Of a DNA stretch of 63,944 nt, positions 29,059 to 63,458 are shown one piece after another (the first letter of the stretch is position 1; each line of letters starts with the position of its first letter). This DNA is from Haloplanus sp. (GTDB lineage Archaea; Halobacteriota; Halobacteria; Halobacteriales; Haloferacaceae). The notes beneath the pieces are model-generated. The model was given only the letters and a program-made list of their open reading frames with translations, searched no databases and had not been told where the DNA came from. The DNA lies in assembly GCF_028275055.1 (NCBI RefSeq), contig NZ_JAQCNJ010000077.1, forward strand, positions 1 through 63,944, in the 5' to 3' direction. The position numbers and the translations under genes were made by a program.

Positions 29059-30014
29059 TCACCGTCGCTCCCTGAACTCGACCGCCCGGCGTTCACCCAG
29101 TTCCATCAGCTCCCTGATAAACGACGGACGACGGTCGACCTTGGTCGAACAGTGGTACGCCTCGCCCATCTCGATCCGATGGATCGTCGTATTCGAGAAC
29201 TCGCTTTCGGGGGGATGCCCCTGCTCGATCCAATCGTTTACCCGTTTGATCGCCCGCAGTTCCTGATTCAACGAGCTGTGTCTCGAGAGTTCGTTGCGAT
29301 GGTCGGCGATTTCCTCGGTCGACGACGGTTCTCCCTCTCGTGTCTGCGGATTGATCTGGATCACCCACAACGTTTGCGCGACAGCTCAACCGTCATCAGG
29401 TCGTCAAGGGGTGGGTTCTGCGAGAACAGCCCGTCCCAGTGGTAGTGGCCGTTGATTTCGACGGCATTGAACGGGGTTGGCACGGCGGCGGATGCGAGTA
29501 CGGCCTCCGGAGTCACATCCCCGTTGGGGAGCGTCTCGAAGGTGCCGGCGTTGACGTTGACCGTTCCGACGACGAGTTCGGGCACGTCACGCCGGCAGAG
29601 AACCGAAACCTCCGCGAAGTCGATATGCCGTTTGAGCGTCTCTCGAATCGCGGTCTTGCCCACTTCGGCGCCGGGCACATCGCACGGGCTGAGCTTGAAC
29701 ACCGGGATGCCGGCGTTCGTGAGCCGCGACAGACCGACAACGAACTCGTTCATAAACTGATCCGGGAGGTCGGACGCCGACAGGTCGTCCCGGCTCGCGT
29801 CAAGCAGTTCGATGGACCGCTCCGCGTCGGCGGTGACGAGGCCGTACCACGTCGTCAAGGCGGTGACCGCCCCGCACAACGTACCGCTGATTTCGACCAG
29901 CTCCTGCCCGTCGTCCCACCCACGGAGCAGTTCCTGTAACACGCCGGCGGTGAACGCCGTGTGACTGCCCCCGCCCTGACAGGCGATGGCCACCTCTGTG
30001 GGGTCGTCACTCAT
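29059..30014 (-). pseudogene. patatin-like phospholipase / PHA depolymerase (PhaZh1-type), frameshifted and active-site mutated
   Basis: ATG 30014 starts MSDDPTEVAIACQGGGSHTAF with the patatin oxyanion loop. The nucleophile motif, normally GxSxG, reads GTLCG (residues 44-48), so the catalytic Ser position is Leu (TTG where TCG encodes Ser). The Asp motif WDGLFSQNPP is kept. After DDLMTVELSRKR the frame hits TGA at 29361. The rest of the protein continues in the next frame (WVIQINPQTREGEPSS, then HRIEMGEAYHCSTKVDRRPS) to 29059. It overlaps the upstream SDR gene by 8 nt. In Haloferax mediterranei a patatin-type PHA depolymerase sits beside a 3-hydroxybutyrate dehydrogenase gene, and the same pairing is seen here. 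Confidence 0.8.
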
Positions 30015-30870
30015 AGGTGGTGGTGTAACCGCCGTCGTGAAGCATATCGCCGCCGTTGAGATGGTTGCTGTGTCCGGAGAAGCCAAAGACAAAGAGGTTG
30101 GCCACCTCGGCGGGTGCCATCATCTCCGTTGTGCGTGCCTGTCCGAGCATCACGTTCTGGACGACCTCCTGCTCGGAGATGCCCCGCTTCTCGGCCGTGT
30201 CCTCGATCTGATTCACCATCAGCGGTGTGAGAACGTAGCCGACGCTGACCGAAAAGCCACGGAGAGTGCCCTCCCCCTCGGCCGCGATGGCCTTCGTCAG
30301 TCCGTTGAGTCCGTGTTTGGCCGTGATGTACGCGGCCTTGTCCTGGGTGGCGTAGTGGCCGTGGATCGAGGACATGTTGCCGATGGCCCCCACGCCATCG
30401 TCGGTCGCGTGGACGTGGGGCATGGCGTGTTTCGCGGTGAGAAAAGGGCCCCGAAGCATGACGTCGAGGAGGAGGTCGTACTTCGCCGTCGGGAACCCCG
30501 CGATAGAGGAGATGTGTTGCATCCCAGCGATGTTCGCGACGTAACGCAGGTCGCCCCGTTCGGCCGCCGCATCAACGGCCGCCGCCACCTCGTCTCCGTC
30601 GGTGAGGTCGGTCGGGACCGGGTGGACGGACCCGGGGACGTCCACCTCGTCGGCGAGGGAGACGGTGTCGTCGAGACCGTTCTCGTCGATGTCGGCACCG
30701 ACGACGGTGAGGCCGTTTGCCGCGAGTGCGACCGCGGTCGCTTGGCCGATGCCCGACGCCGCGCCGGTCACGACGGCGACCGTCTCGGGGCCGAAGTGTG
30801 GGTCGTCGATGACGAGGAGGTCCTCTGCGGTGAGAGCAGGACTACCGAGGTCGAATCCGTCGGTTGACAT
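30007..30870 (-). CDS. short-chain dehydrogenase, 3-hydroxybutyrate dehydrogenase-like
   Basis: A 287-residue SDR. The cofactor motif is VVTGAASGIGQATAVAL, followed by NIAG (NNAG variant) and the catalytic Ser in GNMSSIHGHYATQDKAAY with YITAK. The long form and the match to BdhA-type sequences, plus the overlapping patatin-like gene, suggest oxidation of 3-hydroxybutyrate released from PHA. A minus-strand TATA box (30898-30906) about 30 nt upstream implies a leaderless transcript that also covers the broken depolymerase gene. The SDR itself looks intact. Confidence 0.82.
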   Translation of the reverse strand: MSTDGFDLGSPALTAEDLLVIDDPHFGPETVAVVTGAASGIGQATAVALAANGLTVVGADIDENGLDDTVSLADEVDVPGSVHPVPTDLTDGDEVAAAVDAAAERGDLRYVANIAGMQHISSIAGFPTAKYDLLLDVMLRGPFLTAKHAMPHVHATDDGVGAIGNMSSIHGHYATQDKAAYITAKHGLNGLTKAIAAEGEGTLRGFSVSVGYVLTPLMVNQIEDTAEKRGISEQEVVQNVMLGQARTTEMMAPAEVANLFVFGFSGHSNHLNGGDMLHDGGYTTTYE

Positions 30871-32979: not shown

Positions 32980-33957
32980 TCATCGACGGAGCGAATCGAC
33001 CGTCTCGGCGACGAGACGGGCGCGGTCGGGCGGGGGTACCTCGGCGATCCGGACGTGTTCGCCGCCGGCTTTGGCCGCCATCGTTCGGCAGATGTCGGTG
33101 CCGGAGGTGCCACGATCCAGGTCGAGAACGAGAAGGTCGACATCCGCGGCGCCGAGCCGTCGGGTGAGACGTTCGGTCTCATCGACGGGGTCGCCGGCGA
33201 TTCCAACCGTCGGCCGGCCGTCCGTGAGAACAACGACGACCGCCGGCAGAGCCGGGATGGATTCACGCTCACGCTCAACGAGTCGGTAGGCGGCCAGGAG
33301 ACCGGCGGGTAGGGGCGTCCGGTTCCCGACCGGAATGTCCTCAAGTTGACGCGTGGCGACCGCGGGGTCGTCCGTCGGTGGGACGACCTCGTCGGCCTGT
33401 TCGTCGCGGAAGGCGACGACGGCGACGTAGTCGTCCCGTCGGTTCGCCCGCCGGAGGACCGCCGTCGCCAGCTCCGTCGCCGTCCGGATGTCGCCGTGGG
33501 CGCGCATGCTCATCGACGAGTCGACGACGAAGGTCACCAGCGCCGGTGTCTCGCTGTCCCGTCCTTTCACCCGCAGATCCTGTGTCCCGATCACCGTCTC
33601 GCCGCGCCGCGCCGCGGCCCGAAGCGAGGCGTCGACTGCGATATCGTTGCCACAGTCCCCAGGGTGTCGCCGCCGCGCCCGCACGTACCGGCCGGTCGAG
33701 GTCGGTGCACCGTCGTCGCCGCCGATACGCGCCGTGTCACCGTCGAGGAACGGCACCTCCGGGTCGGAACCAAGCAGGTCGGTTTCGGCCGCTCCCGCCG
33801 TCTCCGTGCCGATGGGGTCGAGGTAGGTGCCGTCGGCGCTCTCTGTGTCGTCTGCGTCGTCCGCATCGCGGCCCTCGGGGTTCCCCGGCGAGTCCTCGTC
33901 GTCGCTTGCGTCCTCCTCGTTCTCGCCCTCGGTCTCGTCTCCGTCGGCCGCCGTTAC
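32980..33957 (-). CDS. VWA half of a ChlD-type metal chelatase, probably expressed by -1 frameshift
   Basis: This frame encodes an acidic linker (VTAADGDETEGENEEDASDD and onwards) and then a von Willebrand A domain with the MIDAS motif VVDSSMSMR, the Thr in GNRTPLPAG and the Asp in VVLTDGRPTVG. There is no ATG before the linker; the first usable start, GTG at 33756, would leave the linker out. In the related fused proteins I know, AAA+, acidic linker and VWA form one chain of about 700 residues. Reading this frame by a -1 slip at 33957-33963 gives exactly that (about 709 residues). A sequencing indel in the T run is the alternative. Confidence 0.75.
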   Translation of the reverse strand, partial: VTAADGDETEGENEEDASDDEDSPGNPEGRDADDADDTESADGTYLDPIGTETAGAAETDLLGSDPEVPFLDGDTARIGGDDGAPTSTGRYVRARRRHPGDCGNDIAVDASLRAAARRGETVIGTQDLRVKGRDSETPALVTFVVDSSMSMRAHGDIRTATELATAVLRRANRRDDYVAVVAFRDEQADEVVPPTDDPAVATRQLEDIPVGNRTPLPAGLLAAYRLVERERESIPALPAVVVVLTDGRPTVGIAGDPVDETERLTRRLGAADVDLLVLDLDRGTSGTDICRTMAAKAGGEHVRIAEVPPPDRARLVAETVDSLRR

Positions 33958-35108
33958 AAAAAATCGCGGAGTCGTCCCGCCAATGAGGTGCCGGTTTCCT
34001 GACGGCTCTCGCTTCCGCCTCGACGGCGACTCGACGGCTCCGAGGCGTTCCGAGGCTCGCCGTCCTCGTCGTCGTCGCCGTCGTCGCCGTCGCTACCCGC
34101 TTCCGGTCTGCCGAACTGATCGCCGGCGAGGTCGTCTAGGTCGACATCGTCGCCGAACGGGCCGTCGGGGACGCGGTGTGCGAGGGCGAGTTCGGCAGAC
34201 CGCCGGAGGTCCGTCTCCGTTACCCTCGTTCGGCCGTCGAGCGCGGCCATCGCCCGCGCACACCGTGCGGTTGCGATGTCGCCGCGGTTCCCTTCGATGC
34301 CGGCCGCGACACAGAGTTCCGCTATCTTCCGCCGATGTTCCGCTCCGAGAGTCACGTCGTCGTATCGCTCCCGGGCGGCGACGATCCGCTCGCGCAGGCG
34401 GCGCTCCTCGTCCCGGTACCGGTCGCGTACCTGCTCGGGATTGCGGTCGACCGCTTCGGCCACCTCGATTATCGTCGCCCGGGCCTCAGGGTCGGTCGGC
34501 GCACTCGCGTCGACCCGCAGACCGAACCGATCCAGAAACTGTGGTCGGAGCCGGCCCTCCTCGGGGTTCATCGTCCCGACGAGAACGAACTCCGCGGGGT
34601 GTTCGACCGCCAACCCTTCGCGTTCGACTCGGTTGACGCCGCTCGCGGCGGCGTCGAGCAACAGATCGACGAGGTGGTCGTCAAGCAGGTTCACCTCGTC
34701 GACGTACAATACGCCGCGGTTGGCGCGGGCAAGCAACCCTGGGTCGAGTTCTTGAACACCCTCGGTGACGGCGCGTTCGACATCGAGCGTCCCGACGATG
34801 CGGTCCTCCGTCGCACCCAACGGTAGGTCGACGACCGGCGTCGGTATCCGTCCCACCTCGGGAGTGGTCCGTTCTCGACACGCCTCGCACTGTCGGTCTG
34901 GGTCGTCCGGGTGACAGTTGAACGGACAGTCCGCGACGACGCGAATCTCGGGCAGAACACGCCGGAGTCCCCGGACCGCCGAGCTCTTGCCGGTGCCGCG
35001 TTCGCCCCGGATCAGAACGCCGCCGAGGTCGCGGTTGACCGCGTTCAGCAACAACGCCGACTTCAGCTCCTCTTGCCCCACGATTGCGGGAAAAGGGGGT
35101 CCCTCCAT
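33954..35108 (-). CDS. ChlI-like AAA+ ATPase subunit of a metal chelatase (cobalto- or magnesium-type)
   Basis: A 384-residue protein. PFPAIVGQEELKSALLLNAV starts the AAA+ domain. Walker A is RGERGTGKSSAV (residues 34-45) and Walker B is VLYVDEVNLLDD (133-144). A four-Cys cluster lies in CPFNCHPDDPDRQCEAC, typical of this chelatase subgroup. GTMNPEEGRLRPQFLDRFGL is the ChlI/BchI sensor segment. The C-terminal part turns acidic and the frame ends at TAA directly after T TTT TTG. It powers insertion of Co2+ or Mg2+ into a tetrapyrrole together with CobN/ChlH-type subunits, none of which is in this window. A minus-strand CGATATAC about 32 nt upstream is the likely TATA box. Confidence 0.88.
   Translation of the reverse strand: MEGPPFPAIVGQEELKSALLLNAVNRDLGGVLIRGERGTGKSSAVRGLRRVLPEIRVVADCPFNCHPDDPDRQCEACRERTTPEVGRIPTPVVDLPLGATEDRIVGTLDVERAVTEGVQELDPGLLARANRGVLYVDEVNLLDDHLVDLLLDAAASGVNRVEREGLAVEHPAEFVLVGTMNPEEGRLRPQFLDRFGLRVDASAPTDPEARATIIEVAEAVDRNPEQVRDRYRDEERRLRERIVAARERYDDVTLGAEHRRKIAELCVAAGIEGNRGDIATARCARAMAALDGRTRVTETDLRRSAELALAHRVPDGPFGDDVDLDDLAGDQFGRPEAGSDGDDGDDDEDGEPRNASEPSSRRRGGSESRQETGTSLAGRLRDFL
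33957..33963 (-). promoter_or_regulatory. candidate programmed -1 ribosomal frameshift site
   Basis: On the minus strand the sequence reads GAT TTT TTG TAA in the ATPase frame. The heptamer T TTT TTG fits the X XXY YYZ slippery pattern and the zero-frame stop TAA follows immediately. Slipping back one base reads TTT TTT GTA ACG, which is precisely the VWA frame. Confidence 0.7.
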
Positions 35109-35699
35109 GTTCCGTGATATCACTCGACGGGACGCGCGTATATCGGTTCGGTTCACCGCGAACGTTTCCTCGCGTTGTTCGGACGGCGGTCGATTCGTCA
35201 CCGAGGTCACGGGTTGGCGTGTCAGCCACGCAAACGCCGGCGTAATAGAGACCGATACGGTGGTTCGGCAGTCCGACAGGTCCATCGACGGCTCGCAGAG
35301 AACCGATGCGAGAAACGGGGCGGTTGGCTCGTGAGAGCAAGCCACCGGGCTTCCGGGCCACCGATCGTCATGACCCTCGTGTGATCGTCGGTGACGTTGG
35401 CGGTGGCCGTGTCAAGGCTCCGCCGGAGCTGCCGGCCCTCGGTCCAAGCCCGGGCTCGGACCGTGGCATCGACGGTCGACGGCAGTTCATCACGCAGGTG
35501 ATCGTCGGCCGAGACCGATCATCGCCGGAGATGTAACGCGGGCCGTCGTACCGATCGCTGCACCGAGGCGAACGAGTGCCGTGCCGCTCGGTCCGGAGCG
35601 AAACGAGCATCGACCCACCGTCGAGAGCCGAGGTCAAGATGGATGAACAACCCGGTCGTCTGACCTTCTCGTCCTTCGGCGGGTGGGTCCGCCACGGAG
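35109..35699. other. divergent intergenic region
   Basis: About 590 nt between the chelatase promoter (TATA near 35140, minus strand) and the regulator promoter. No additional gene recognised. Confidence 0.5.
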
Positions 35700-35716
35700 T
35701 TGTGCAACCTGTACAA
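35700..35716 (+). promoter_or_regulatory. candidate operator palindrome upstream of the TrmB-like regulator
   Basis: TTGTGCA-ACC-TGTACAA is an interrupted palindrome with one mismatch. It lies directly upstream of the TATA TTTTTATC (35722-35729), which in turn is about 28 nt before the ATG at 35755. Its position over the BRE region suggests autoregulation by the adjacent regulator. Confidence 0.55.
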
Positions 35717-35754
35717 AAATGTTTTTATCGGCTCGGGGTGTATACACGTGCATA

Positions 35755-36159
35755 ATGCCGGATTCGATGTCCGAGCAGCTCCGCCAGGATATGCGGTGTG
35801 AGGGGCTGCTGGAATGTTTCCACGGCCTCAAGGAACTCGACAAGGAGTGCTTCCGGGTGCTCGTCGAGGCCGACGACCCATTAACCGTCGACGAAATCGC
35901 CGACAGGGTCGATCGGGAGCGCTCGACCGCTTATCGGGCCGTTCAGCGGCTGCTGAAAACGGGATTTATCGAGAAAAATCAGATCAACTACGATCAGGGT
36001 GGGTACTACCACGTCTACTTGCCAACGGATCCATCCCAGATTGCGGACGATATGCAACGGATGCTCAACGACTGGTACGCCAAGATGGGCCAACTCATCC
36101 AGGAGTTCGAGGACAAGTACGAACGGTCGGAAACCTCGGTTTCGACCGCCGACAGGTGA
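35755..36159 (+). CDS. TrmB-like winged-helix transcriptional regulator
   Basis: A 134-residue protein. The winged helix is LTVDEIADRVDRERSTAYRAVQRLLKTGFIEKN, followed by a wing (YDQGGYYHVYLPTDP) and a C-terminal coiled helix (QRMLNDWYAKMGQLIQEFEDKY). Three cysteines lie in the N-terminal 35 residues. The overall form resembles the thiol-based haloarchaeal regulator OxsR and its relatives, but I cannot say which subgroup it belongs to. A TATA box 28 nt upstream makes it leaderless, and the palindrome at 35700-35716 may be its own binding site. Confidence 0.82.
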   Translation: MPDSMSEQLRQDMRCEGLLECFHGLKELDKECFRVLVEADDPLTVDEIADRVDRERSTAYRAVQRLLKTGFIEKNQINYDQGGYYHVYLPTDPSQIADDMQRMLNDWYAKMGQLIQEFEDKYERSETSVSTADR

Positions 36160-37498: not shown

Positions 37499-37591
37499 AT
37501 GTCGGAACGGATGGCGACGGCAACTCCGGTCGTGACGAATCCGATTCCAACGCTCATGATACCGTCCACCCTTGCGAGCGCTGATCGCTGA
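37499..37591 (+). CDS. leader micro-ORF overlapping the uvsE start
   Basis: Encodes 30 residues (MSERMATATPVVTNPIPTLM, then IPSTLASADR). The TATA box at 37471 puts the transcript start at its ATG, so it should be translated leaderless. Its TGA shares the A with the uvsE start codon (TGATG), a typical arrangement for translational re-initiation. It has no similarity I recognise and could be a regulatory leader peptide. The prediction depends on the promoter assignment. Confidence 0.5.
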   Translation: MSERMATATPVVTNPIPTLMIPSTLASADR

Positions 37592-38475
37592 TGTTGGGAT
37601 ATCCAGGCATGAACCACACCCTCCGTGACCGTGACCCGCCGGTTCGGTGTAACCGAAGCATGCGGAAAGCCACCTTCGAGGAACGAGGACTCTCGTACGC
37701 CTCGGAGCTTGCGCTTCAGAACATGCGGGACCTCCACACGGTGTTGGAGTGGAACACGGACAACGGGATCCGATTTTATCGGTGTCCGTCGAAGCTGGTG
37801 CCGTGGAACTCACAGTTCGAACTCGAAGCGCTCCCGGACTACGAGGCCCTCCGAGAGGCCGCACGCCGTTGCGGGGCGGTGATCGAAGACCACGACATGC
37901 GACTCACCTTTCATCCCGACTACTGGTGTCGGCTCGCCAGCGACGACGCGGAAACCCGGGCGTCTTCTATCACCGCCATCGAGTACCACGCCGATTGGTT
38001 CGAACTGCTGGGTCTCGATGCAACGCCGTACTACGGCATCAACGTCCACATCGGGGCGACCTACGGCGACAAGGAGGCGACAGCCGAGCGATTTCGGGCG
38101 GCCATCGACGACCTCTCCGTGCGTGCACGCAAGCACCTCACAGTCGAGAACGACGACACATCCGGGCTCTGGGGAGTGCCCGAACTCGTCGACGCCGTCG
38201 AGGGAACCGGCGTTCCGGTTCTGTTCGACTACCACCACCACTCTTTCACCGACCGGGAGTTGACATACCGGGAGGGCTTCGAACTGGCCGCCGAAACCTG
38301 GGGCGAGGTGCGGCCGGCGACACACTACTCCGAACCGGCGTGTCTTCGAAACGAGGCCACCAGACCACAGGCACACGCCGAATACGTCGCCGACCTGCCG
38401 GCGTGGCTCCGTCGGCGGTCGGACGTGGTAATCGAGGCCGGGGGCAAGGAAGACGCCGTGGCTCGGGTTCGCTGA
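37591..38475 (+). CDS. uvsE: UV damage endonuclease
   Basis: A 294-residue TIM-barrel UV endonuclease of the UvsE/UVDE family. The N-terminus MLGYPGMNHTLRDRD matches the family start. FYRCPSKLVPWNSQ, RLTFHPDYWCRL, NVHIGATYGDKEATAERF, LTVENDD, PVLFDYHHHSF and THYSEPACLRNEATRPQAHAEY carry the metal-binding His/Glu/Asp residues. It nicks next to UV photoproducts, starting repair independent of NER. Translation is probably coupled to the overlapping 30-codon ORF, and the photolyase gene follows 86 nt downstream. Confidence 0.95.
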   Translation: MLGYPGMNHTLRDRDPPVRCNRSMRKATFEERGLSYASELALQNMRDLHTVLEWNTDNGIRFYRCPSKLVPWNSQFELEALPDYEALREAARRCGAVIEDHDMRLTFHPDYWCRLASDDAETRASSITAIEYHADWFELLGLDATPYYGINVHIGATYGDKEATAERFRAAIDDLSVRARKHLTVENDDTSGLWGVPELVDAVEGTGVPVLFDYHHHSFTDRELTYREGFELAAETWGEVRPATHYSEPACLRNEATRPQAHAEYVADLPAWLRRRSDVVIEAGGKEDAVARVR

Positions 38476-38561
38476 CGAGGGGCCGGTCTCGGCCGGTTCG
38501 GGACGGACACGGGGTGGGGCGGACAGGAACTGTTTTTCTGGTGGAGGCGATACTGTCCACC

Positions 38562-40148
38562 GTGCCTTCCCCGCCGATACCGACCGTTCCGGCGGCGGAT
38601 GCCGTGTCCGCCCCGCCAGACGAGACGGGGTGTGTGCTCTGGCACCGTCGCAACCTTCGGATAACGGATCATCCGGCCCTCGCGTACGCCGCCCGCGAGT
38701 ACGACACGGTGATGCCGGTGTTCGTTTTCGACCCCGCGTTCTACGGGCCAGACGGACTCGCGTGCGATTCCCGCATTCAGGTGCTCCACGAGTCGCTTGC
38801 GAGCCTTCGGCGGCTCTACGAGGCGGTTGGGGGGTCGCTCGGGCTCGCACACGGCGATGCGGTGGCGGTTCTCGGCCGACTTCACGACGCCGGCTGGGAT
38901 GTCGTCGCCACCGCCGACCCGACGGCCGCGTACGGCGCGGAGCGAGACGACCGTGCCGCGAGTCGGTGCGACGCGACGTTCGTCGACGGTGACGGTCTCG
39001 TCAGGGGACAGAGTTGGACCCGTGAGAACTGGAGTGACCGCGTCGAGACGTGGCTTGAGGCCGACCCACCGACGTGGAACCCCGAGACGGTTGCTTTCGA
39101 ATCCCCCGGACAACAGGTTACCATCGATGCGGTTGCGGACGCATACGACGTGATGCCGACAAAATCGAACGTCCCGACCGGCGGTCGGGGTCCGGCGGTT
39201 CGAAAGCTACGAGCCTTTGTCGACCACGTCGAAGCCTACCCCAGTAACATTTCGGCCCCGACCGACGCCCGCACCGGGACGAGCCAGCTTTCGCCGTATC
39301 TGCGGTTCGGGTCGCTCTCGGTGCGGGAGGTGTACCGGTACGTTCAGGAACACGCCCCGGACGGTGCCGGCAAGGAGATGTTCGTCTCGCGGCTGTTCTG
39401 GAACAAACATTACCACCAGAAACTCGAGGACTGGAGCGGCTGGATGACCGAGGCGGTCAATCCGGTGCTGCGGGGGATTCGGTCGGAGAGCCACGACCCC
39501 GAGTTGGTCACGGCGTGGAAGCGTGGCGAAACGGGGTTTCCCATGGTGGATGCCTCGATGCGGTGTCTCACCGAAACCGGGTGGCTCAACTTCCGGATGC
39601 GCGCGATGTGTGCGAGTGTTTTTGCCGACCTTCTCCAGCAACCGTGGTGGATCGGCGCGGACTTCTACCATTACCATCTCGTCGACTCGGATCCGGCGAT
39701 CAACTACACCCAGTGGCAGTCACAGGCCGGCACCGTCGGGACGAACCTGATGCGGATCTACAATCCGATCAAGCAGGTCCGGGACAACGACCCTGACGGG
39801 ACGTTTATCAAGCGATACGTCCCCGAACTCCGCCCGCTGGCCGCCGAACACCTCGCTCGACCCGAGAAAACCCCGGTTCACGTCCAGGAGTCGTCGGGTG
39901 TCGTTATCGGTGACGACTATCCGTACCCGGTCGTCGAGTACGAGGCCGCTCGCAGGCGCGCCGTAAAAAAGTACGAACGACTCAAACCGGACGCCCTCGC
40001 GGCGCTGGAGGATCCCGAAATCGCCCGACGAGCGTCGCTATCCTCGCGGTCACAACCGTTGGAGGCCCCCGAGGAGACTCCCGAGTCGGGGGCCGACAAA
40101 CAGGTATCATTGACATCGTTTTCGGCGTCGGACGCGGACTCCGTCTGA
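38562..40148 (+). CDS. cryptochrome/photolyase family protein
   Basis: A 528-residue flavoprotein. The N-terminal Rossmann-like antenna domain starts at CVLWHRRNLRITDHPAL. The FAD-binding catalytic domain includes GTSQLSPYLRFGSLSVREVY, MFVSRLFWNKHYHQK, ETGFPMVDASMRCLTETGWLNFRMRAM and SDPAINYTQWQSQAGT. The DPAINYTQWQ form differs somewhat from classic CPD photolyases (DGDLAxNNxxWQWxAG), so CPD photolyase or cryptochrome-like function is open. GTG 38562 was chosen from a TATA-like TGTTTTTCT about 28 nt upstream; GTG 38541 is possible. It follows uvsE on the same strand. Confidence 0.88.
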   Translation: MPSPPIPTVPAADAVSAPPDETGCVLWHRRNLRITDHPALAYAAREYDTVMPVFVFDPAFYGPDGLACDSRIQVLHESLASLRRLYEAVGGSLGLAHGDAVAVLGRLHDAGWDVVATADPTAAYGAERDDRAASRCDATFVDGDGLVRGQSWTRENWSDRVETWLEADPPTWNPETVAFESPGQQVTIDAVADAYDVMPTKSNVPTGGRGPAVRKLRAFVDHVEAYPSNISAPTDARTGTSQLSPYLRFGSLSVREVYRYVQEHAPDGAGKEMFVSRLFWNKHYHQKLEDWSGWMTEAVNPVLRGIRSESHDPELVTAWKRGETGFPMVDASMRCLTETGWLNFRMRAMCASVFADLLQQPWWIGADFYHYHLVDSDPAINYTQWQSQAGTVGTNLMRIYNPIKQVRDNDPDGTFIKRYVPELRPLAAEHLARPEKTPVHVQESSGVVIGDDYPYPVVEYEAARRRAVKKYERLKPDALAALEDPEIARRASLSSRSQPLEAPEETPESGADKQVSLTSFSASDADSV

Positions 40149-49914: not shown

Positions 49915-50033
49915 ACGGTCGACGACGCCGTCCGACACGGTTCATCCCCCCGTCTCCCGTGGCATATCGTCCGGTCGGGGGCGTTCTGTCCCGTGGTATT
50001 AATTACGTTCGCAACACTTAACAGGTTGTTTGC

Positions 50034-52547
50034 ATGAACGGAAGCCGCGGGGGGAGCAAGCTTGAACTACTGGTTGCAACAACGGACCAGTCATTTGGCA
50101 GTGCGGTCGTTGATGCAGTCGAGGGAACGGGGGTAGTGTCGAGCGCGGAGCGCGTCGAACCGGTCACCGATGGTCCGATACAGCGCGACACCGACGGTTT
50201 CGACGGGGCTGTCGTCGACGGCCGGACGGCCGACGCGGCAGCCGTCGTTGAGCGTCTCACCGAGCGGGCGGGTCTTCCGGTCGTCGTCCTGAGCGAGGCG
50301 ACAAAGGACGACGGCACGGTTGCCCGCGCTATCGAGGCAGGGGCGGTCGATGTCTTTCCACGGACCACAGCGAGCGCGCAGTGCGAACTCGCCGTCGAAC
50401 GGCTCAGCACCGAGGGCACCCCAGCGGGGACCCGAGAAAAAGGGTCCGATCACGGGGAGGCCTACCGGACCCTGTTCGAGAAGGTTTCGGAGGGGCTGGT
50501 CGTCCACGACCCGGAGACCGGCACCATCGTCGACGTGAACGAGCGGTTCTGCGAGATGAACGGCTACGAGCGGTCGGAACTGCTCGGCGAACCGATCGGG
50601 ACCGTGATGACCGAGAAGGACGCCTACGGGCCCGAGGCGGCCAAAGAGATGATCCGGCGAGGGCGTACCGAAGGTCCACAACATTTCGAGTGGCGTAACC
50701 GACACCGGACTGGTGAGACGTTCCCCGTTGAGGTCGATCTCGCGGTGATCGAACTTGACGGCAGGGAACGCGTCCTCGCAAGCGTCCGGGACATCACCGA
50801 GCGCAAGCGTCGCGAACGGGAGTACGAACAGATATTTAACAGCGTCCAAGATGCCATCACCGTCCATGATCCCCGGACCGGCGAGATGGTTGACGTCAAC
50901 GACACGTTCTGTGAACTGGTGGGATACGACCGCGAAACGATACTCGAGATGGGGACGCCGGGTGTCAGCGTCGAGGAGGAGGGCTACACCGAGGAGTACG
51001 CGGAGAGGATTATCGCGGAGGTGATGAGTGAGGGTCAGAAGGGCCCATACGAGTGGATGGTGGAGACGAAAGACGGCGAACGCCGGACCACCGAGGTCGT
51101 GACAACGAAAGGCACGATCGGCGGAGCGGAACGGATCATCTCGATCAATCGGGACATCACCGAGCGCAAGCGCCGGGAACGGGAGTACGAACAGATCTTC
51201 AACGGGGTCAACGAAACGATCAGCGTCCACGATCCAAAGACCGGAGAGCTACTCGACGCCAACGACGCGTTCTGTGAGCTACTGGGACACGACCGCGAGG
51301 AGATCATCGAGAACGGTGTTATGGAGTACACCCCGAGTGGACAGGGGTACACCGTCGAGAAAGGGATGGCGTTCATCCGGGAGGTGGTCGAGACGGGTGA
51401 ACCGAAACGGACCGAGTGGGCCGTCGAGACAGCCGACGGTGAACGCCGGCAACTCGAAGTCACCGGCACGACCGTAGAACTCGGTGGCGACCTTCGCTAC
51501 GTCGCCATCAACCGCGATATCACCGAGCGCAGGCGTCGCGAACAGGAGTTCGAGCAGATATTCAACGGTGTGCAGGACGCGATAGCGGTGTTCGACCCGG
51601 ATACGTTGGAGTATCTCGATGCCAACGAGGCCTATCTGGAGATGTTCGGCCACGAAAGCGTCAGCGAACTTCGCGAGCGGGGCGTCTCGGGGCTCAGCAT
51701 CACCGAGGAGGGATACACGGAACAACGGGGCCGCGAGATTCACCAGCGGGTCGCAGAGAGCGGCCAGCCGGAGACACTGGAGTGGCAGGGCGAGACCAGC
51801 GGGGGCAAGCGTGTCTGGCTCGAGGTCAAGGTTACCCCGGCCGTCATCGGTGGCGAACAACGAACCATCTCGATTCAACGGGACATCACCGGGCGGAGGC
51901 GCCGGGAACAGCGTCTGGAGGTGTTCAACCGGATTTTGCGCCACAACCTCCGCAACCAACTCGACGTGATCCGAAGCCACGCAGAGAAGCTCGCGGACCG
52001 GGCGACCGACGGCCGCGCCGAGCGAATCATCACAACGGTCGACGACCTGGCCGAGATCGGGAGACGCGCACGACAGGTGGACCGGATCCTGTCGAAGGAT
52101 GAGACGCCGACGGAAATCGACGTTGCCGAGACACTCGGGGAGACCGTCGAGGCGATGAAACCGGAGCAAAGCGATGTAACGGTGACGACCGAACTTCCGA
52201 GAGAGATGCGCCTGCAAACCGACAAGGAAAGCGTGGTCATGGCCGTCGAGAGCGCGCTGGAGAACGCGCTCGAACACGCGACATCGGCGGTGAGTGTCAC
52301 CGTCGAGAACGAACCGAACGGGTGCGTTATTACGGTCGCCGACGACGGGAGCGGGATTCCGGAGGAGGAACTCATCCCCATCGAGATCGAGACGGAGAAC
52401 CGTCTTCGGCACGGGAGAGGGCTCGGTCTGTGGCAACTCCGGTGGTGTGTGGACAACCTCAACGGAGACCTGTCGTTCGAGACGGCGGCGGGAACGACCG
52501 TCCGTATCACGGTGCCCGACCGGCGCGAACCGGGCCGCCCTCGTTGA
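50034..52547 (+). CDS. multi-PAS sensor histidine kinase with degenerate N-terminal receiver-like domain
   Basis: An 837-residue cytoplasmic kinase. Residues 1-130 resemble a receiver fold without the acidic pocket (LLVATTDQ in place of VDDD). Four PAS domains follow (about 145-260, 265-385, 390-510, 515-630), the middle ones being close copies (each linker reads DITERKRREREYEQIFN or similar). The HisKA helix is NRILRHNLRNQLDV with phospho-acceptor His637. The HATPase has ENALEHA, VADDGSGIP and the G2 region HGRGLGLWQL. It is the first gene of the signalling island. No membrane segment, so it senses an internal cue. Confidence 0.92.
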   Translation: MNGSRGGSKLELLVATTDQSFGSAVVDAVEGTGVVSSAERVEPVTDGPIQRDTDGFDGAVVDGRTADAAAVVERLTERAGLPVVVLSEATKDDGTVARAIEAGAVDVFPRTTASAQCELAVERLSTEGTPAGTREKGSDHGEAYRTLFEKVSEGLVVHDPETGTIVDVNERFCEMNGYERSELLGEPIGTVMTEKDAYGPEAAKEMIRRGRTEGPQHFEWRNRHRTGETFPVEVDLAVIELDGRERVLASVRDITERKRREREYEQIFNSVQDAITVHDPRTGEMVDVNDTFCELVGYDRETILEMGTPGVSVEEEGYTEEYAERIIAEVMSEGQKGPYEWMVETKDGERRTTEVVTTKGTIGGAERIISINRDITERKRREREYEQIFNGVNETISVHDPKTGELLDANDAFCELLGHDREEIIENGVMEYTPSGQGYTVEKGMAFIREVVETGEPKRTEWAVETADGERRQLEVTGTTVELGGDLRYVAINRDITERRRREQEFEQIFNGVQDAIAVFDPDTLEYLDANEAYLEMFGHESVSELRERGVSGLSITEEGYTEQRGREIHQRVAESGQPETLEWQGETSGGKRVWLEVKVTPAVIGGEQRTISIQRDITGRRRREQRLEVFNRILRHNLRNQLDVIRSHAEKLADRATDGRAERIITTVDDLAEIGRRARQVDRILSKDETPTEIDVAETLGETVEAMKPEQSDVTVTTELPREMRLQTDKESVVMAVESALENALEHATSAVSVTVENEPNGCVITVADDGSGIPEEELIPIEIETENRLRHGRGLGLWQLRWCVDNLNGDLSFETAAGTTVRITVPDRREPGRPR

Positions 52548-52831
52548 CACCGGCCTGCGGGGCCCGTAACCGCGTCGCCGCGTGCGGAGACAGCGCCGGC
52601 GACAACGAGAGCGGTCACACACCCCGACCCGCGGGAGCCGTCCTAACGGGGCCATACGGTGCCGAGAAGACCGGTCCGACGCCACCCGTCTCTGCCGGTT
52701 CGATGGACGGCGGTGTGAGTGGGGTCACTCGCACACCCCGGACGGTCAGTTCCGAGTCGTTCACCCGGGGCAGTTAAATCCAATTTCAGTTCTGATTCCG
52801 GTACAACAGCTTTTTGATTACAGTTACACAC

Positions 52832-55800
52832 ATGTCTACTATGTCGTCCGGTTCGCGACAGCAGATCCACGTTCTCCACGTCGACGACGAACCGGGGTTC
52901 ACCGACTTGGCGGGGACGTTTCTCGAACGCGAGGACGACCGCTTCCGTGTCGAGACTGCAGTCAGCGCCGACGAGGGGTTACGGTGCATCGACGACCGCC
53001 AACCCGACTGCGTTGTCTCGGACTACAACATGCCCGGCATGGATGGGATCGAATTCCTGCAGGCTGTCAGACGGGAGTTCCCAGACCTCCCGTTTATCCT
53101 GTTTACCGGCAAGGGCAGTGAGGCCGTCGCCAGCGACGCTATCTCCGCGGGGGTCACGGATTACCTCCAGAAACAGACCGGTACCGAACAGTACGAACTG
53201 CTGGCCAACCGGATCCGGAATGCCGTCCGAGCACGGCGCGAGGCAGAACGAGCCGACAGAAAAGACGAGTTGATGCGTCTTACCGAGGTTCTCGGCGACA
53301 CCGGCGGGTTCGAACTCGACGTTGAGGCTGATGAGGTTATCCTGACCGACGGCGCCCGTCGGATACTGAACGTTCCGGAACAGGAGAGCTACGATCATCA
53401 GAAGGGCTTGGAGTACTACCACCCGGACGACCGGGAGGGTATTCAACGGGCCATCGAGCGAGCACTCCGGACGGGCGAGCAGACACAAGGAACCTGGCGC
53501 TACCGGCACCCGGATGCTGACGAGCAACGGCTGTTGAACATAACGTACACGCCGGCGACGACCGACGGGGACACGACGGCGATCCGTGGGGCTATCCGCG
53601 ACATCACCAGCCGTCGGGAACGCGAACGCGAACTCGGCCGTCTCCGGCAGGCCGTCGACGACGCAAACGTCGCAATCACGCTGGCCGACCCGGAACGGCC
53701 TGACCAGCCGTTGGTCTATGTCAACGCCGCGTTCGAGGAAATGACCGGCTATCGCTCCGAGGAAGTGCTCGGACGCAACTGTCGGTTTCTCCAAGGCGAG
53801 AACACCGACCCCGAGAAGGTTACCGCACTCCGCGAGGCCATCGATGCCGCGGAGCCGATTTCGGTGGAGTTGCGCAACTATCGAAAGGACGGCACAGAGT
53901 TCTGGAACCGGCTGACCATCACCCCCATCTACGACGACGAGGGCGAACTCGTCCGGTATCTCGGGACACAGGAAGACGTTACCGAGCGGAGAAGGCGTGA
54001 ACGAACGCTGTCACAAACCCGTGACCTCATGACGGACATGGAACAGTTGGCCGACGTGGGCGCGTGGGAGTACGACTCGGACGCCGAAACGCTCGTGACC
54101 GACGGAGCCAATCGAATCTTCGGGCTCGAACCGGACGTGAAGCCAACTCCGGAGCAAGCGTTCGAGCGCTTCCACCCGGAGGATCGTGACCGACTCACCG
54201 ACCGATTCACCGACTGTCTCGAAACGGGCACGCCGTACGAGGTTGACGTGAGACTCATCACGCCCGAAGGGGCACAACGGTGGGTTACCGCACGGGGCGA
54301 GCGGGTAGACGGGGCCGAATCCGATGGCGTCGTTCGCGGATACATACAGGACATCACCGAGAAGAAAACCCGCGAACTGCGGTTGACCGAACTGAACCGG
54401 GCCCTACAAAAGCTTTTGACAGCGGAAACCCGACAGGAGGTTGCCGACATCGGCGTCAGGGCCGCCAAGGACGTTCTGGGCTTCCGGGCGAATGCCGTCC
54501 ACCTCCGTGGGGCCGACGACACGTTGACGCCAGTGGCACAGACCGACGACCTCACAGCACTCCTCGATGAGGTGCCCTCGTTGTCTGTGGCCAACAGCAT
54601 CGCCGGGCGCGTCTATCGGCGTGGGGAGCCGACCGTCGTCGAAGACGCACGTCAGGACCCGGACGCCCACGACCTAGAAACCGATCTCAGAGGGCACGTC
54701 TACCTCCCGCTTGCCGATTACGGCGTTTTGATCGCCGGTTCAGAAAAACAGGCCGCGTTCGACAAACAGGATCTCACGGTCGGCGAACTGCTGGCGGGGA
54801 ACCTCGTGGCAGCACTCGACCGGATCGAAAGCGAGCGGACCGTTAGCCGGCAGCAACGGCAACTCGAGTTGTTTTTCGACGAATCACCGCTCGGGGCCGT
54901 TCAGTGGGACGATGAGTTCCGCTTCGAGCGTCTGAACGAACGGGCAGAAGAGATCCTCGGATACGAGGAAGCGACGTTACGCGGCGAACCGTGGGAGACC
55001 ATCGTCGCCGAGGAGGACCGTGAGTACGTGGGGACGGTCGTGGAGAACCTCCTCGACGCTGATGGTGGCACCCACGCCGTCAACAGAAACGTCCGGCAGG
55101 ACGGCGAGACGAGACTCTGTAAGTGGCACAATCGTGTGGTGACCGATGCGGACGGCAGCGTGCAAACGATCATTTCGAAGTTCGAGGATATTACCGAACA
55201 GGAGGAGCGCAAACGGGAACTCAGGGAGGTCGACGGTCAGTACCAAGCACTTGTGGACAACTTCCCGAATGGGGCGATGTTTCTGTACGATACGGATCTG
55301 CGGGTCGTCCGTGCCGGGGGAAGCGAACTGCCAAACGTCGGACTGTCGTCCGATGAACTGCGGGGGACGACGCCGCACGACCGGTATCCACCCGAAATCA
55401 CCGACGAACTCGTTTGTCATCTCGAGTGTGCGCTTGCCGGGGAGAGGCGGGCGTTCGAACAGGAGTACAACGACGAGTGTTATCGGGTCCAGACGGTTCC
55501 CGTCCGAACGGGCGGTGGGGAACCCACCCACGTGATGGCGGTGTCAGAAAACATCACCGAGCGGAAGGAACGCGAACTGGAACTCAAACGGTACGAGCGA
55601 CTCGTCGAGAACCTCCCTGTCGGTGTTTTCAGAACGACGATGGACGGAGAGATCATCGATACGAACGAGGCGGCGACGGATATCTTCGGGGTGGAGTCCC
55701 GTGCGCAACTCCGGAGCGTGGGTGTAGAGGAACTGTACATCGACGAGTCGGACCGTAACGACCTACTCGACCGCCTTCGGGAGACAGGGCGGGTGGAAAA

Positions 55801-55927
55801 CGAGTTACTCGCGTTCGAAACCTTGGATGGGAACCGGCGGTCCGTTCGGGCGACGATTACACTGACCGAGGAGGGGGAACGCAGCTACCTCGAAGGCATT
55901 CTTGAGGACGTAACCGACCGACGCTAA
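52832..55927 (+). CDS. receiver-PAS-LOV-PAS-GAF-PAS-PAS-PAS protein lacking a kinase domain
   Basis: A 1031-residue protein. The receiver (about 10-125) has HVDDEPG, phospho-Asp64 in VVSDYNMPGMDG and the Lys in LFTGKGS. A PAS follows (about 150-275), then a domain at about 285-400 with the LOV photoactive motif GRNCRFLQGENTD, in which Cys317 can form the flavin adduct. It continues with PAS (about 405-515), GAF (about 530-680, DVLGFRANAVHLRGADDTL), and three PAS. It ends in EDVTDRR without HisKA or HATPase. Blue-light input with output through partner kinases is plausible. A second Met at 52841 fits the TATA spacing better. Confidence 0.9.
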   Translation: MSTMSSGSRQQIHVLHVDDEPGFTDLAGTFLEREDDRFRVETAVSADEGLRCIDDRQPDCVVSDYNMPGMDGIEFLQAVRREFPDLPFILFTGKGSEAVASDAISAGVTDYLQKQTGTEQYELLANRIRNAVRARREAERADRKDELMRLTEVLGDTGGFELDVEADEVILTDGARRILNVPEQESYDHQKGLEYYHPDDREGIQRAIERALRTGEQTQGTWRYRHPDADEQRLLNITYTPATTDGDTTAIRGAIRDITSRRERERELGRLRQAVDDANVAITLADPERPDQPLVYVNAAFEEMTGYRSEEVLGRNCRFLQGENTDPEKVTALREAIDAAEPISVELRNYRKDGTEFWNRLTITPIYDDEGELVRYLGTQEDVTERRRRERTLSQTRDLMTDMEQLADVGAWEYDSDAETLVTDGANRIFGLEPDVKPTPEQAFERFHPEDRDRLTDRFTDCLETGTPYEVDVRLITPEGAQRWVTARGERVDGAESDGVVRGYIQDITEKKTRELRLTELNRALQKLLTAETRQEVADIGVRAAKDVLGFRANAVHLRGADDTLTPVAQTDDLTALLDEVPSLSVANSIAGRVYRRGEPTVVEDARQDPDAHDLETDLRGHVYLPLADYGVLIAGSEKQAAFDKQDLTVGELLAGNLVAALDRIESERTVSRQQRQLELFFDESPLGAVQWDDEFRFERLNERAEEILGYEEATLRGEPWETIVAEEDREYVGTVVENLLDADGGTHAVNRNVRQDGETRLCKWHNRVVTDADGSVQTIISKFEDITEQEERKRELREVDGQYQALVDNFPNGAMFLYDTDLRVVRAGGSELPNVGLSSDELRGTTPHDRYPPEITDELVCHLECALAGERRAFEQEYNDECYRVQTVPVRTGGGEPTHVMAVSENITERKERELELKRYERLVENLPVGVFRTTMDGEIIDTNEAATDIFGVESRAQLRSVGVEELYIDESDRNDLLDRLRETGRVENELLAFETLDGNRRSVRATITLTEEGERSYLEGILEDVTDRR

Positions 55928-61499: not shown

Positions 61500-61796
61500 C
61501 GGGTTCACCCTGCCGTTGGACGGGTGCCGTCTCCCCGATGATGTGGCACCCGTTCGACACACTTCGAGGTTTCCGAGAGTGAAACACGGGGACCCCCTCT
61601 ATTAATCTCGGGAACCGCCGTTTCCGTGCCCGCACAGTCCCCCAGTTGATGATCTAAGCCCGTACCTCCGCGATCACGTTCGTCGCTAATCGTGCTTTGC
61701 TCCGTGCATCGGCCCTTCGATTCCGAGACCGAATCGAGCAGCCGCCGTCGTATGCAGCCGATATAACACCCGAGTCGCCGTTCGAGAAATGAAACG
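61500..61796. other. intergenic region with further kinase debris
   Basis: About 300 nt. The left part (to about 61570) carries out-of-frame kinase-like residues; the rest shows nothing recognisable. Confidence 0.4.
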
Positions 61797-63458
61797 ATGA
61801 TCGCCGGCACTACGTTAACCACGCCGACACTCAAGACGCTGGCGTCCGCCCTTTTGTGTTGGACAACCTGGAGAACGTACCGGTCCAGAGGCCGGCCCAG
61901 TGCGGAACCGTTTCTCGTGTTCTCGATGACGCTGACCGTCTGGGCAGTCGCCTCGCTTGGGGCCACGGTCGTCAGCGTTGTGAGCGTGCGCTTTCTTAGG
62001 CCGGTTTTCAACGTATTACAGTTCGGTGCCCTGCTGTTTCTCCCCGTCGCTTGGATCGCCTATGCACTCAGCTATGCCGGCCGCGGCATCATGGCGGCAC
62101 GGAGGCGGATCGTGTTGCTGTTCGGAATCGTGTTACCGGTGGTGATCGGCGCGATCGCTCTCGCTAGTGATGCCCCAAAAACGCTCGTCGGACCGGTGCT
62201 CGGACTCGCGCTCGGGTGGACGGTCCTGTACGGCTTTCTGTTGGTCCTGTATGCCCTGTATGCGACGTATCTGCTGATCGATCTCAGCTGGGGCCATCCC
62301 CGGGTGTCGAGCACACAGATAACCATGCTGACAGCCAGCGTTGTGGCTCCAAGCCTGCTCTCCGTTGCGGAGGCCAATACCTCACTGGCCGGCGGCACGA
62401 CGCTCGGTCTGCTCCTGTCGGGCGCTTTCCTGACCGCTGCAATACGACGGTACCCGGTGCTGACCGGGTTCCCGAAAGCCGACCACGTCGCACGGACACG
62501 CGTGGTCGAAACCCTGCAGGAGGCGCTCGTCGTCCTCGACTGGAACGATCACGTCCTCGACGTCAACGAAACGGCGGCGGAGTTGTTCGACGGGTCCACG
62601 GAGGGGATGATCGGCGAACCGGTGCGGACCGTCATCGACGGACTCGAACGGACCGAACTCCCTACAGGTGCCACGGAAACGGTCGCACTTCGGACATCCG
62701 AAGGGCGTCGACGGTTCCAGTTTACCGTCTCCGCGGTCAAGGACGCCACGACCAACGACGAGGGCAACCCCGTCGCCAGAACCGTACTTTTCAGGGACAT
62801 TACCGACCGAGAGACCAGAGAACAACGGCTCGCGGTTCTCAATCGGATCCTTCGCCACAACGTGCGGAACGACCTGGATGTCGTGCTCGCGTACGCCGAC
62901 CACGTCGACGACGAGGAGCTACGGACCGGCATTCGAGAGTGCACGACCGACCTTCTCGAACTGAGTAGCAAGGTCAGAGAGGCAGAAACAGTCATGACCG
63001 AGAGTACCGACTCACCGGAGTCTGTCGATCTGACTGACGTGGCTGGTGCTGTCGTGGATCAGTTCCGATCCGAGAACGAGTCGGCCGACATCTCGCTCGT
63101 CCGTCCCGACGAGGTGACTATCTCCTCTCATCGAGCCGTGCTCCGGCGGGTGCTTTTCGAGCTGGTGGAGAACGCACTCGAACACACGACAGCGGACACG
63201 CCCCGCGTCGAACTCAGTGTTCGCGAGGTGCCCGACGGGACGGTCGAACTCTCCGTTGCGGATGACGGCCCGGGAATTCCCGAGCGGGAACGAGAGATAC
63301 TCGCTGCCGGAACCGAGACACAACTCGAACACGGCCAAGGTATCGGACTCTGGTTCGTCAACTGGGCCATTACCCAGTTGGGTGGGGAGATCCAGTTTCG
63401 GGAGAACGACCCCGAAGGTAGCGTCGTCACCGTCCGGCTCTACGATTCGGTGAGGTAA
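61797..63458 (+). CDS. membrane-bound PAS histidine kinase (N-terminal 7TM type)
   Basis: A 553-residue protein. Residues 1-225 form about seven membrane helices, as in haloarchaeal kinases with the 7TM histidine-kinase N-terminal domain. A PAS follows (VVETLQEALVVLDWNDHVLDVNETAAELF), then HisKA NRILRHNVRNDLDVVLAY with His354 and an HATPase with ENALEHTTAD, VADDGPGIPERE and EHGQGIGLWFVNW. It would pass an envelope or membrane signal to regulators of the island. Confidence 0.92.
   Translation: MIAGTTLTTPTLKTLASALLCWTTWRTYRSRGRPSAEPFLVFSMTLTVWAVASLGATVVSVVSVRFLRPVFNVLQFGALLFLPVAWIAYALSYAGRGIMAARRRIVLLFGIVLPVVIGAIALASDAPKTLVGPVLGLALGWTVLYGFLLVLYALYATYLLIDLSWGHPRVSSTQITMLTASVVAPSLLSVAEANTSLAGGTTLGLLLSGAFLTAAIRRYPVLTGFPKADHVARTRVVETLQEALVVLDWNDHVLDVNETAAELFDGSTEGMIGEPVRTVIDGLERTELPTGATETVALRTSEGRRRFQFTVSAVKDATTNDEGNPVARTVLFRDITDRETREQRLAVLNRILRHNVRNDLDVVLAYADHVDDEELRTGIRECTTDLLELSSKVREAETVMTESTDSPESVDLTDVAGAVVDQFRSENESADISLVRPDEVTISSHRAVLRRVLFELVENALEHTTADTPRVELSVREVPDGTVELSVADDGPGIPEREREILAAGTETQLEHGQGIGLWFVNWAITQLGGEIQFRENDPEGSVVTVRLYDSVR

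Follow-up and report, generated by a model that had tools for sequence, protein, structure and literature searches.

A candidate −1 ribosomal frameshift between the ATPase and VWA halves of a chlD-type gene in Haloplanus

How might one gene supply two subunits of an AAA+ motor when its second half stands in another reading frame? The question is raised by a locus in a contig of Haloplanus sp. (NCBI RefSeq assembly GCF_028275055.1, contig NZ_JAQCNJ010000077.1, positions 1 to 63,944), the whole of which is referred to here as the window. On its minus strand an open reading frame of 384 codons for a ChlI-like AAA+ ATPase (35108–33954) closes with GAT TTT TTG TAA, and the −1 frame continues with an acidic linker followed by a VWA domain (33957–32980, 325 codons and a TGA). 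A first-pass annotation, made from the letters of the DNA alone, took the joint for a slippery heptamer that allows a small and a large chelatase subunit to be made from one gene by −1 frameshifting, and the conservation of the site in two related species supports this. We consider it likely that ATPase, linker and VWA domain belong to a single chlD-type gene, expressed through a programmed −1 ribosomal frameshift; on comparative grounds the slip gene appears real, conserved and probably working, with a distinct slip site and, in two of its three carriers, a setting free of CobN.

The joint and its conservation

The heptamer T TTT TTG occupies 33957..33963 and the zero-frame stop TAA abuts its 3′ side at 33954..33956, just as the first-pass annotation had described them. 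The −1 frame starts from the G of the heptamer, and the slip product computed from this site has 709 residues with RLRDFLVTAAD at the joint, so that both of the sizes first proposed (about 384 and about 709 residues) are exact. The zero-frame tail past the AAA lid (33957..34148) ends in RLRDFL and is poorly conserved save for its last codons. The ATPase matches Pfam Mg_chelatase and AAA_lid_2 and the NCBIfam models TIGR02030 and TIGR02442, and its translation contains GERGTGKS (34983..35006), which we take to be the Walker A motif. The −1 frame is indeed that of the linker and VWA part (Pfam VWA_2 and VWA), with the VWA domain at residues 141–278 of the −1 product (33124..33537); DSSMS, T and D, read from its translation, presumably form a MIDAS-like motif. 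By these models the two halves correspond to the ATPase portion and the VWA portion of a single chelatase family. The 641 positions of TIGR02442, ‘putative cobaltochelatase’, are matched by the halves in order (2–365, then 344–640) at 492 and 163 bits when the halves are scored apart, and the 779-bit cut-off of the model, being set for a whole protein, applies uncleanly to these scores. Residues 5–318 of the ATPase match the solved chain 6l8d_A (E 1.7e-102), and at E ≤1e-10 it matches three solved sequences in all, each of them ChlI or its bacterial counterpart (ChlI/BchI).

The split gene is also present in two other species of the genus, here G005 (77% identity to the window gene) and G003 (73%), where the joints read GAT TTT TTG TGA and GAT TTT TTC TGA, respectively. 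The alignment of homologues proposed with the first-pass annotation therefore finds the T6 run and the adjacent stop kept in all three carriers, the window and the two close relatives found, within a zero-frame tail that is otherwise 37–53% identical. The pattern TTTTTTSTRA occurs once in the window (both strands) against 0.02 expected, whereas T or A runs of at least six are common enough by themselves (12 in the window). The strong evidence that the site is not due to chance comes from the comparison of species. In G003, GATTTTTTGTGACG occurs a second time (C7:850479), in another frame of an unrelated gene, and this was put down to chance.

How widespread the split is was assessed from 60 relatives, which yielded 28 loci in 27 genomes, and from a set of 118 loci classed with domain profiles. 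The 44 haloarchaeal members of this set comprise 37 genes in one frame, three with the −1 split, three solo ChlI genes and one gene broken by an adapter-like join containing N. No fourth member that close was found among 170 genomes of the family (E ≤1e-114) or 392 genomes of the order (1e-118). In a laxer search of the order (E ≤1e-50) the short frames opened among the matches listed were those of G357, G166, G120, G288 and G242, with G379 and G312 outside this set; more distant split genes beyond those matches may be missed.

Several short or broken frames were set aside. G357 (L127, G357:C41:250500-256500) had resembled a fourth case, but its linker contains an adapter-like join with N (at about 2600–2630) and is an artefact, as is that of G086 (L121, G086:C57); ChlID frames interrupted in this way can pass for frameshifts and appear to result from faulty assembly, and the joins resemble a library adapter, presumably of the Nextera type. 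The short frames of G166 and G120 are solo ChlI genes, that of G242 is cut by a contig end, and that of G288 has had most of its VWA domain deleted. This last locus (L130, G288:C52:134000-140500), a ChlID gene adjoining CobN, retains the last stretch of the VWA domain in frame within an open frame of 519 codons.

Predicted products and their partners

Under programmed frameshifting, some ribosomes would halt at the TAA and release the 384-residue ChlI-like ATPase, and others would shift back by a base on T TTT TTG (T TTT TTC in G003) to make the 709-residue ChlD-like protein of ATPase, linker and VWA domain. The two products would probably assemble into an AAA+ motor of the ChlI/ChlD type, with the efficiency of slipping setting the subunit ratio. 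The client of this motor in G003 and G005 is probably other than the CobN cobalt chelatase, because neither genome (both 99% complete) contains CobN (PF02514); CbiC, the sole marker of the corrin pathway tested, is likewise absent from both, and the motor would there work without CobN. For this subgroup a role as cobalt or magnesium chelatase does not follow, given the lack of a CobN/BchH-type large subunit in G003 and G005. Among the 12 genomes of the genus analysed, six carry the one-frame gene with CobN beside it and three have neither.

The wider distribution was read from the 392 genomes of the order, of which 211 contain the ATPase (E ≤1e-50); CobN was hit in 203, and the two lists were compared by eye; in G020 the CobN hit is only a 20-bit fragment, and there is no ATPase match. 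The ATPase occurs without CobN in nine of the 211 genomes (G003, G005, G040, G100, G104, G118, G166, G211 and G220). Apart from G003 and G005, the CobN-free genomes have two genes each: one for a ChlD of about 650–660 residues that includes the VWA domain in its frame, the other for a solo ChlI of about 340 residues (both counted from the match start). In none of the nine is a one-frame fusion all that is present. All nine thus have the genetic means for two polypeptides, which in G003 and G005 would depend on slipping. Since none of these nine genomes relies on the one-frame fusion alone, both products are probably used in G003 and G005, in a complex without CobN. The pattern is an association in nine genomes with shared ancestry, not a functional test. 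Three genomes with CobN (G120, G282 and G366) have a ChlD/ChlI pair in addition to the one-frame gene. Several genes for short-chain dehydrogenases (SDR) follow the ChlD/ChlI pairs in L128 (G166) and L129 (G120); the window also has an SDR gene (30010–30870), and its likeness to these neighbours may be chance.

Other genes near the split gene are shared in part. When the proteins of the window were compared with 19-kb stretches of G005 and G003, an MFS transporter 8 kb away matched besides the chelatase gene, at about 50% identity between the window and the relatives and 92% between G003 and G005. Weaker partial matches (25–54%) were found for 50022–52544, 52796–55924 and 61767–63455 of the window. 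We claim no functional link from these shared neighbours. The G005 and G003 loci (L124, L125) have histidine-kinase-like, MFS and LPG-synthase-like genes in common, and the chelatase gene is placed differently among them in the two, which indicates that the gene or its neighbours moved locally. In the window a gene for a TrmB-type regulator (35683–36156, plus strand) lies upstream of the chelatase gene and divergent from it, and beyond this are a UvdE-like endonuclease and a photolyase (37591–40145, plus strand).

Weighing the alternatives

Purifying selection acts on both halves of the gene. The ratio of non-synonymous to synonymous substitution rates (dN/dS), calculated for the three split genes with our own Nei–Gojobori script, is 0.14–0.17 in the ATPase core, 0.25–0.36 in the VWA half at dS 0.45–0.78, and 0.38–0.99 in the two linker parts, which rules out a dead gene. 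No start codon near the joint is common to the three genes, and a start of its own was rejected as the general explanation of the −1 frame. That this frame has no start before the linker, as first stated, holds for the window, where the first one lies 200 nt downstream of the joint, and for G003, which has none between −315 and +373 nt of it; it fails for G005, whose first −1 codon is a GTG overlapping the stop (GTGA). On such a view coupled or internal initiation would yield the VWA part, or it would not be produced at all, and no shift would be programmed. Coupled initiation is possible in G005 alone, since the window has GTA and G003 has CTG in place of the overlapping GTG. A GTG 316 nt upstream is common to G005 and G003. 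A GTG just ahead of the VWA domain (the V of DLRVK) is present in the −1 frame of all three genes, and a short VWA-only product may start from it; this would leave the linker untranslated, yet dN/dS is 0.38–0.53 in that linker and 0.25–0.36 in the VWA half. Nor would initiation of either kind need the T6 site to be kept, and we regard this explanation as unlikely.

The kept run would also suit transcriptional slippage, in which RNA polymerase adds a U within the T6 run and some messages become in-frame fusions, with the joint then reading DFFVT instead of DFLVT in the window and G005. The run alone would suffice for this, whereas the phase of the heptamer and the adjacent stop are requirements of a ribosomal site, and six Ts are a short run for polymerase slippage; neither point is decisive, and we hold slippage of the polymerase to be improbable. 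Least credible, and in our view very improbable, is an artefact, with a true run of seven Ts in what would then be a normal one-frame ChlID. The ChlID frames of G357 and G086 are indeed broken through faults of assembly, but here T6 stands in three separate genomes with no N or adapter at the site; moreover, as one-frame genes those of G003 and G005 would make these the only two of nine CobN-free genomes to rely on one fused protein.

Programmed frameshifting remains the explanation that we prefer, and several observations weigh against it or against its reach. Beyond the GTG of G005 just described, no consistent signal of a downstream RNA stem emerged from 12 folds of downstream stretches, of which 11 departed from dinucleotide shuffles by no more than about 1.3 standard deviations (the remaining one, 90 nt of the window, gave z −2.1). 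All three split genes come from a single genus, in three of the 12 genomes of it examined, and the split is rare beside the one-frame form (three loci to 37 of the 44 from haloarchaea). As to the CobN-free setting, the window genome (79% complete) contains CbiC and a C-terminal stub of CobN that breaks off 3 bases short of where contig C93 ends, so that a normal CobN system may exist in it beyond the assembled sequence. The cut CobN and adjoining CbiC (L126, G000:C93:92000-102017) are on a different contig from the window. Upstream of the heptamer, GGAGG occurs at 8 nt in G003 and G005, the position expected of a Shine–Dalgarno-like stimulator, and not within 40 nt in the window. The final base of a slip heptamer is given as any base but G in one review (PMC8211752); here it is G in the window and G005, and C in G003.

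Origin, precedents and significance

A careful tree of 44 sequences chosen by hand, including 14 of the 36 Chloroflexi −1 genes, places the three split genes in one clade (bootstrap and Shimodaira–Hasegawa-like approximate likelihood ratio supports 100/99), sister to the one-frame gene of G045 (99/95), within a wider group that adds 13 further haloarchaeal one-frame genes (100/98). A quick tree of all 118 agrees (99, 94, 98), and a few haloarchaeal genes, including the ChlD–ChlI pairs, fall outside that group. A common origin with the Chloroflexi −1 genes is rejected by the approximately unbiased test (p 0.0006 with 14 sequences, 2.9e-8 with 12 that form one clade). The slip runs also differ: each of the 36 non-haloarchaeal −1 loci carries seven or more consecutive As in the overlap and no stretch of five or more Ts, and the three haloarchaeal loci have T6 and a longest A run of 2–3. 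Because the tree rejects the Chloroflexi grouping and the runs differ, the haloarchaeal split probably arose independently, which is the simplest reading of these sequences; an old frameshift lost many times may also account for them, and counts of changes cannot separate gain from loss. Among one-frame haloarchaeal genes, runs of A6 or T6 are missing from 35 of 37 linkers. In L116 there is an out-of-phase A6 run, and L006 (G044:C1:2051955-2055998), a single AT-richer gene in a locus of 46% GC, has an in-phase A AAA AAA in its linker at codon 347 from the match start. With a −1 stop four codons past that run, a slip in L006 would give a short ChlI-like protein of about 352 residues, the reverse of the arrangement described here.

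Frameshifting in chlD-type genes, which the first-pass annotation had mentioned, is on record. Magnesium chelatase genes with a −1 frameshift have been described from Pseudomonas, Burkholderia, Delftia, Herpetosiphon, Methanocaldococcus and Methanococcus, and reporters of homologous genes in Escherichia coli slipped at 63, 40 and 10% with 11, 9 and 7 As (PMC3711429). These fs-chlD genes (Antonov and colleagues 2013, 2020, 2022) share with the present ones a ChlI-like ATPase followed by a VWA part in the −1 frame, a slip run with a stop that ends the first frame, and the proposal of small and medium subunits from one gene; some of the genomes lack a large subunit or a B12 pathway and the function was described in 2022 as unclear (PMC9227772). 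Their trait of a −1-frame VWA part without its own start is seen in the window and G003, and G005 has the GTG overlapping the stop. They differ in their poly-A site, A_AAA_AAR in a 2016 review (PMC5009743), which is a usual and not a defining trait, where the present genes have a T6 heptamer and group with haloarchaeal one-frame genes, away from the frameshift genes of Chloroflexi. In the literature searched for frameshifting with chlD, chelatase or haloarchaea we found no haloarchaeal chlD frameshift, Antonov 2020 (MBE msaa081) lying outside that search.

The haloarchaeal ChlID genes beside cobN have the same domains in the same order and are the nearest relatives of the split genes in the tree, but encode one polypeptide in one frame; an example is Haloferax volcanii, whose chlID (outside the A6/T6 linker count) and cobN have the consecutive locus tags HVO_B0050 and HVO_B0051 (PMC8305020). 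Relatives with separate genes, first named as a sign against frameshifting, do exist in other haloarchaea, but as full ChlD and ChlI pairs of another clade and not as the two halves; like the split genes they provide two polypeptides (over all such pairs about 650–680 and 340 residues from the match start), without CobN in seven genomes, from two genes and with no frameshift. Archaeal −1 slip heptamers are also described for the tail chaperone of haloarchaeal tailed viruses and for Sulfolobus fucA1, which are unrelated genes with other sites, among them G GGA AAG, A AAA AAC and a heptamer of the poly-A type (PMC5009743, PMC7911831, PMC8211752).

We suggest tentatively, and with slightly less than even confidence, that this lineage separated from CobN and that its ChlID gene, once the source of a single protein, came to encode a motor of two proteins through a U6 site of its own, converging on the CobN-free haloarchaea with two genes. 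If slipping occurs as proposed, the locus would be an example of −1 frameshifting at a U-rich heptamer in a cellular gene of haloarchaea, and would mark a CobN-free ChlI/ChlD machine still to be characterised. A second, separately evolved frameshift split of the same kind of gene would argue for a need for the short protein as well as the long one, and the two complete carriers without CobN would separate this need from cobalt insertion. Genetic tools exist for halophiles, in which the role of a ChlI/ChlD pair without a large subunit would become testable.
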